A stretch of DNA of 34,775 nt from Sulfurimonas sp. (GTDB taxonomy: Bacteria; Campylobacterota; Campylobacteria; Campylobacterales; Sulfurimonadaceae), in the NCBI RefSeq assembly GCF_016744025.1, contig NZ_JADGFC010000011.1, positions 1 to 34,775 on the forward strand. Direction: 5' to 3'. The notes beneath the pieces are model-generated. The model did no database searches and had not been told where the DNA came from. It saw nothing but the letters and a program-made list of their open reading frames with translations. Position numbers and translations under genes: made by a program. Shown here piece after piece: positions 8,211 to 9,360 of this stretch. Numbering within the stretch: the first letter of the stretch is position 1; the number at the start of each line of letters is the position of its first letter.

Positions 8211-8226
8211 AGAGCAATAGGAAGAT

Positions 8227-9360
8227 ATGTTGAATCTTTTACTAAGGATTCGAATTTTCCTACATTGGGAGTCTTCTCCCAAACCTGACAAAAAACTTCT
8301 ACCTGAAATTTACCCGCATCTAAAAGCATTTCGTCTCCCTATAATTTTAACAGTTCTTACTATGCTAGTTGGAACAATCGGTTATATTTTAATTGATGGT
8401 TTTACTCTTATTGATGCTGTTTACCAAACTGGTATAACTTTTACTACTGTTGGGTTTGGAGAGATTTCTCCAGTTTCAAATGCTGGTAGGCTATTTACAA
8501 TAACCCTAATCATATCTGGATTTGCAGTATTTTCTAGTGCAATCGGTATCTTAGTAACGGAATTAAGTAAAGGGAATATACTTGCCATTTTAAAGGAGCG
8601 AAGAATGTTATACAAGATAGCAAGATTGAAAAAACATTTTGTAGTCTGTTATCACAATGATTATACTCTTGAAGTAACAAAACAACTAAGGGCTAATCAT
8701 ATTCCTTTTGTTGTTGTTGATCCTAGAGAAGAAATTCATGAGTGGGCAAAAGAGCATAATTACCTAACATATTTAAAAGCTGAGCCACATGCTGAACTTT
8801 CTATGTTAAAAGCGCACCTTGCATCTGCTAAAGGACTTATCACCTTATCTGATTCAATAGCAGATAATATTGCCCTTATAGCTTCTGTTAGACTATTTGA
8901 GAAGGAACACTTCTTACCTAGACCTTACTATGTAATCTCTACTGCTGAGACTATGAGTGATGTAGAAAAGCTTAAAAAACTAGGAGCTGATACAGTTGTA
9001 TCTCCAACAAAACTAACAGCTCAAAGAGTTAGTGCAATGGCCGCTCGTCCTGATATGGAAAACCTTTTAGAAGAGTTTCTTTATAAAAGTGATAATCCTT
9101 TAGATATGGAAGAGGTTGAAGTTCCTAAATATAGTTGGACAGTATTGAAAAAGTTAAAAGAAACGCATATGCGTCAAATAACTAATACTTCTGTTATCGG
9201 AATAACAAAAAAAGATGGTAAGTTTATATCGATGCCTAAGGGTGATGTACTGATTACAAGTGAGTGTAAACTTCTTATTATAGGTTTACAAACAGATATT
9301 AAAACAACTAAAGAACTTTTAAGAAAAAGAACTAAGCCAAAGGAGCTAAGATTTGTATAA
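8227..9360 (+). CDS. two-TM potassium channel with RCK (TrkA-N/C) domains
   Basis: A K+ channel of the MthK/HpKchA type, 377 residues. TM1 spans about 36-57. The pore helix is followed by the selectivity filter TTVGFGE at 73-79. TM2 spans about 86-112, and a cytoplasmic regulator-of-K+-conductance (RCK) region runs from about 137 with a TrkA-C-like part from about 300. The usual GxGxxG nucleotide motif at the start of the RCK fold is replaced by CYHNDYTLE (141-149), so NAD binding of the classical kind is doubtful. An internal Shine-Dalgarno site precedes Met127, suggesting a second, soluble RCK product. AGGAAG stands just before the ATG at 8227. The 3' end overlaps argJ by 8 nt. A regulatory gating ring built from free RCK subunits is known for MthK; for this gene it is inference. 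Confidence 0.93.
8593..8607 (+). promoter_or_regulatory. internal ribosome binding site and start at Met127
   Basis: AAGGAG at 8593-8598 is a full Shine-Dalgarno match, six nt from an in-frame ATG (8605-8607) that is codon 127 of the channel. It lies exactly between the end of TM2 and the start of the RCK fold. Translation from here would give a soluble RCK protein of 251 residues. MthK makes its free RCK subunits from an internal start (Met107) in the same place. Confidence 0.65.

Follow-up and report, generated by a model that had tools for sequence, protein, structure and literature searches.

A selected internal ribosome-binding site in a two-helix K+ channel gene of Sulfurimonas and its order points to production of a free RCK subunit

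The K+ channel MthK of the archaeon Methanothermobacter makes a free RCK domain from an internal start at Met107, and its octameric gating ring is composed of tethered and free RCKs (PMC9440719). Channels with a single RCK are considered to complete the eight-RCK ring only when such an RCK, made from an internal start, is co-expressed (PMC3510474). GsuK is likewise an RCK-gated channel with two membrane helices (2-TM) and an eight-RCK ring (PMC3510474), but it carries RCK1 and RCK2 in tandem on one chain and needs no internal start. The in vivo importance of internal starts in single-RCK channels is disputed on the basis of E. coli Kch, in which removal of the putative internal start reportedly altered neither expression nor function; the in vivo role of the octamer has been called possibly irrelevant, and Kch linkers are described as invariably containing Met residues (PMC2920069). 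An internal start of this kind is thus already known, both as Met107 of MthK and in the single-RCK channel literature.

We analysed a stretch of 34,775 nucleotides from a Sulfurimonas sp. genome (hereafter the window), in which one ORF encodes a K+ channel of 377 aa (Table 1). Like MthK, the channel combines a 2-TM pore with one RCK, as Pfam finds one TrkA_N and one TrkA_C per subunit, both C-terminal. MthK is the best PDB match by sequence, although identity is about 24%, and the top fold match of the AlphaFold2 model of the channel (mean pLDDT 77.9). The initial annotation had placed AAGGAG six nucleotides before an in-frame ATG at the border between TM2 and the RCK, and the coordinates, Pfam and AlphaFold2 agree with this placement. 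The sequence to position 8607 reads TTAAAGGAGCGAAGAATG, with CGAAGA as the six-base spacer between the Shine-Dalgarno (SD) sequence and the ATG, which is in frame with the channel ORF as codon 127 of 377. Met127 sits in the TM2-RCK linker, between Ion_trans_2 (ends at residue 113) and TrkA_N (begins at residue 138); in the AlphaFold2 model the inner helix spans residues 85-115, a linker helix (residues 117-132) contains Met127 and the first RCK strand runs from residue 138. Initiation at Met127 would yield a 251-aa product with both lobes complete (TrkA_N, residues 12-134; TrkA_C, residues 168-239; Pfam), whose calculated mass of 28.8 kDa is close to the "about 28 kDa" originally proposed. The proposed equivalence with the internal start of MthK, whose use is documented (PMC9440719), also held: Met127 and Met107 each lie 10 residues before an aligned His (H137 and H117, first RCK strand), in an HMMER alignment with gaps that shift the two Met residues by one.

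Table 1. Features of the channel gene, its candidate internal start and the overlapping downstream gene (window coordinates).
Feature	Position	Strand	Evidence
Weak SD AGGA before the full-length start (8227)	8219..8222	+	Predicted pairing -4.2 kcal/mol
2-TM single-RCK K+ channel gene	8227..9360	+	ORF list; Pfam; best PDB match MthK (sequence and fold)
Pore domain Ion_trans_2, residues 41-113, filter TVGFGE	8347..8565	+	Pfam; filter read from sequence
Internal SD AAGGAG, codons 123-124 (Lys-Glu)	8593..8598	+	ARGGAR in 231/234 orthologues; predicted anti-SD pairing -8.0 kcal/mol
Candidate internal start codon ATG, Met127	8605..8607	+	234/234 orthologues; 6-nt spacing constant
Predicted free RCK subunit, 251 aa, 28.8 kDa	8605..9360	+	Calculated mass; both RCK lobes complete
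RCK N-lobe TrkA_N, residues 138-260	8638..9006	+	Pfam
RCK C-lobe TrkA_C, residues 294-365	9106..9321	+	Pfam
SD AAGGAG of the argJ-like gene, in the last channel codons (Lys372-Glu373)	9340..9345	+	Pairing -8.1 kcal/mol; codon bias

A full SD at a domain border had been judged unlikely to arise by chance, and the counts bear this out. The window's longer ORFs contain 225 internal Met codons in frame, and Met127 alone among them has AAGGAG 4-9 nt upstream; none of the 2140 other in-frame ATGs of the channel orthologues is preceded by AAGGAG. The arrangement of AAGGAG and Met127 is far beyond chance. Genome-wide, the pattern AAGGAGN4-9ATG occurs at 191 sites versus 82 for the reversed control. 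The mRNA at the internal start is not unusually unstructured (0.50 unpaired versus 0.48).

Conservation in relatives had been proposed as the check on the internal site, and both of its elements proved to be retained. We gathered orthologues at the level of genus, family and order. The codon alignment holds 234 distinct sequences, which represent about 20 families of this one order and show 42-100% identity; the Sulfurimonas sp. GH10 orthologue is 92% identical to the channel. The matches listed in a phylum-wide search all came from the order, and those in a scan of named genomes were near relatives only. ATG127 is present in 234/234 orthologues with zero indels between the SD and the ATG, and the hexamer is AAGGAG in 172, AAGGAA in 48 and AGGGAG in 11, followed by single cases of CGGGAG, AAGGTT and AAGGTG. 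The weakened sites AAGGTT and AAGGTG belong to two related orthologues (L212 and L213). No Met column other than Met127 is fully invariant in a 203-sequence set. Several near-complete genomes of the same genus (G021, G059, G062, G066 and G067, among others) lack the channel and keep only distant paralogues, and five orthologues of family f9 (L222, L224, L225, L241 and L245) have one TAA within the matched stretch.

The motif K/R-E-R-x-M is also conserved at the protein level, which by itself would fit a constraint on the protein or codon bias with no ribosome-binding site at all. The third base of a Lys codon is out of reach of such a constraint, however, and Lys123 is AAG in 222/222 cases of the 234-sequence set (~25% expected) and 197/197 of the 203-sequence set, in channel genes that use AAA for 76% and AAG for 24% of Lys codons. 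This is the strongest synonymous bias among the 316 columns tested. Parsimony on the protein tree assigns zero synonymous changes to Lys123, the lowest value among the two-fold columns counted, versus 3 to 56 in the other well conserved Lys columns (next lowest 3, most 15-55). The comparison of change counts takes account of relatedness, unlike the probability of about 1e-11 under codon usage for AAG at 17/17 Lys123 codons of representatives below 60% identity, in which residual relatedness is ignored. Orthologues with Arg in place of Lys123 encode it by AGG (n = 11) or CGG (n = 1), so that GGGAG is retained, while AGA is the commonest Arg codon here; taken alone, the use of AGG is weaker evidence because a single step separates AGG from AAG. 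The remaining conserved Lys columns in the channel gene vary freely, and the neighbouring argJ-like gene has no column of this kind (top AAG column 43% in 134 copies). The synonymous data rule out protein constraint or codon bias as the explanation for Lys123, and we give next to no credence to either as the source of the conserved site as a whole. Selection at the nucleotide level on a putative internal ribosome-binding site is well supported by these codon patterns. Strong codon bias is also seen at several columns elsewhere in the channel (Arg7 AGG, Pro18 CCC, Gly107 GGT, Ser244 and Ser345 AGT).

The end of the channel gene offers a comparison within the same alignment. The argJ-like gene starts at a TTG (9353) that overlaps the channel gene end, and its SD lies within channel codons, of which Lys372 is AAG in 90% of the orthologue alignment versus 25% expected, again one of the high values among the columns tested for synonymous bias. 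Judged from codon choice, the Lys372-Glu373 SD codons behave as a built-in positive control. The channel and argJ-like genes are probably translationally coupled (9340-9360).

The reading of the initial annotation, that a selected internal ribosome-binding site would make a free RCK subunit, is well supported by the sequence comparisons. We hold with high confidence that one channel mRNA carries two starts. The start at 8227 would give the full-length subunit, with the pore and one RCK, and the start at Met127, via its full and selected SD, would give the free 251-aa RCK domain for the ring. By analogy with MthK, the free RCK probably joins the tethered RCKs in an eight-RCK gating ring, and from one RCK per channel subunit we infer a ratio of 4 tethered to 4 free, as we do the usage of the start and the assembly. 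The mechanism is most likely that of MthK. Four features of an MthK-type channel are present: a 2-TM pore with a K+ filter, a single C-terminal RCK, a start codon in the linker and a selected ribosome-binding site.

In another reading, the free RCK is translated from a transcript that begins inside the gene, or its target in trans is some other K+ transport protein and not the channel's own ring. RCK proteins of the TrkA/Ktr type, to which similarity is seen here, work as separate subunits. A scan of the + strand upstream of 8593 for promoter-like sites found nothing above shuffles, a weak test, and the tethered homologous RCK is the obvious partner of a free one, with MthK as precedent; we consider a separate transcript or an action in trans improbable.

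The same genome encodes a second single-RCK channel, a 6-TM Kv-like protein of 523 aa, which provides a natural comparison inside the same cell. Nineteen copies of this paralogue within the genus (L002, L253-L268, L270 and L271) have neither an SD nor a conserved Met at the TM-RCK junction; L269 turned out to be a different channel. Directly after each 6-TM paralogue, where the locus extends far enough, lies a separate ORF of ~230 aa, and the channel stop and the ORF start overlap by a few bases (often ATGA) or abut. In the window's own genome this ORF encodes an RCK protein (TrkA_N and TrkA_C; best PDB match the MthK RCK), and the separate RCK gene is probably the supply of free RCK for the 6-TM channel. 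The two channel families appear to obtain extra RCK in the same cells either via an internal start or from a second gene. Pairs of 6-TM channel and RCK gene were seen in the window's genome (G000:C249; L002, L003) and at L253-L268 and L270-L272, and three genomes of another family (G350, G260 and G342) carry the same pair.

The paralogue also bears on whether the SD-like sequence acts as a translational pause, as has been proposed for such sequences, helping the second membrane helix to insert or the RCK to fold, with no initiation. In favour of this, the site lies about 8-10 codons beyond the end of the inner helix, but a pause leaves the invariant ATG and the invariant 6-nt spacing (234/234) unexplained, and the 6-TM paralogue has the same TM-RCK junction with neither element. 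We regard a pause in place of a start as very unlikely.

Returning to the two-start reading, the predicted strengths of the two sites differ. Pairing to the 16S tail has a predicted median of -8.0 kcal/mol at the internal site versus -4.2 kcal/mol at the best full-length start, and the predicted internal pairing is the stronger in 204 of the 234 orthologues. A pairing of -5 kcal/mol or lower is reached by 99.6% of the internal sites versus 7.3% of other internal Mets. If strength equals use, pairing energy by itself would suggest that the output of free RCK could equal or exceed that of the full-length channel. A bolder version, in which the internal start is dominant, the RCK is in excess with a role of its own and the second channel family uses a separate overlapping RCK gene, seems to us doubtful. 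Were it true, the RCK might, for example, set ring occupancy with K+ or nucleotide state, or act in trans, and this role would have been kept across the order.

E. coli Kch resembles the channel in having an internal Met (Met240) before the RCK with AAGGAA upstream, but it is a 6-TM protein and its AAGGAA lies 11 nt from the ATG, so the site is probably weaker. The synonymous freeze of the ribosome-binding site across the order is independent evidence that these cells need free RCK, and it bears on the dispute over single-RCK internal starts. Gene calls that assign one protein per gene miss the free RCK. A limited literature search returned no paper reporting a conserved ribosome-binding site or a synonymous freeze across the order, nor was the split-gene paralogue found reported; neither potassium nor RCK appears in the main text of a paper on C. 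jejuni Ribo-seq (PMC11955535). Evidence for selection at the nucleotide level across the order and the split-gene paralogue both appear to be new.

Orthologues from one genus, probably Helicobacter, are single-copy and full-length, at ~50% identity to the channel, and carry AAGGAG or AGGGAG together with the ATG. They may be orthologous to HP0490 of Helicobacter pylori. HpKchA of H. pylori, a 2-TM RCK K+ channel of the same order, is about 50% identical to the channel. Stingl et al. (2007, EMBO J 26:232) reportedly mutated the internal RCK start codon of HpKchA and obtained an intermediate K+-dependent growth defect.
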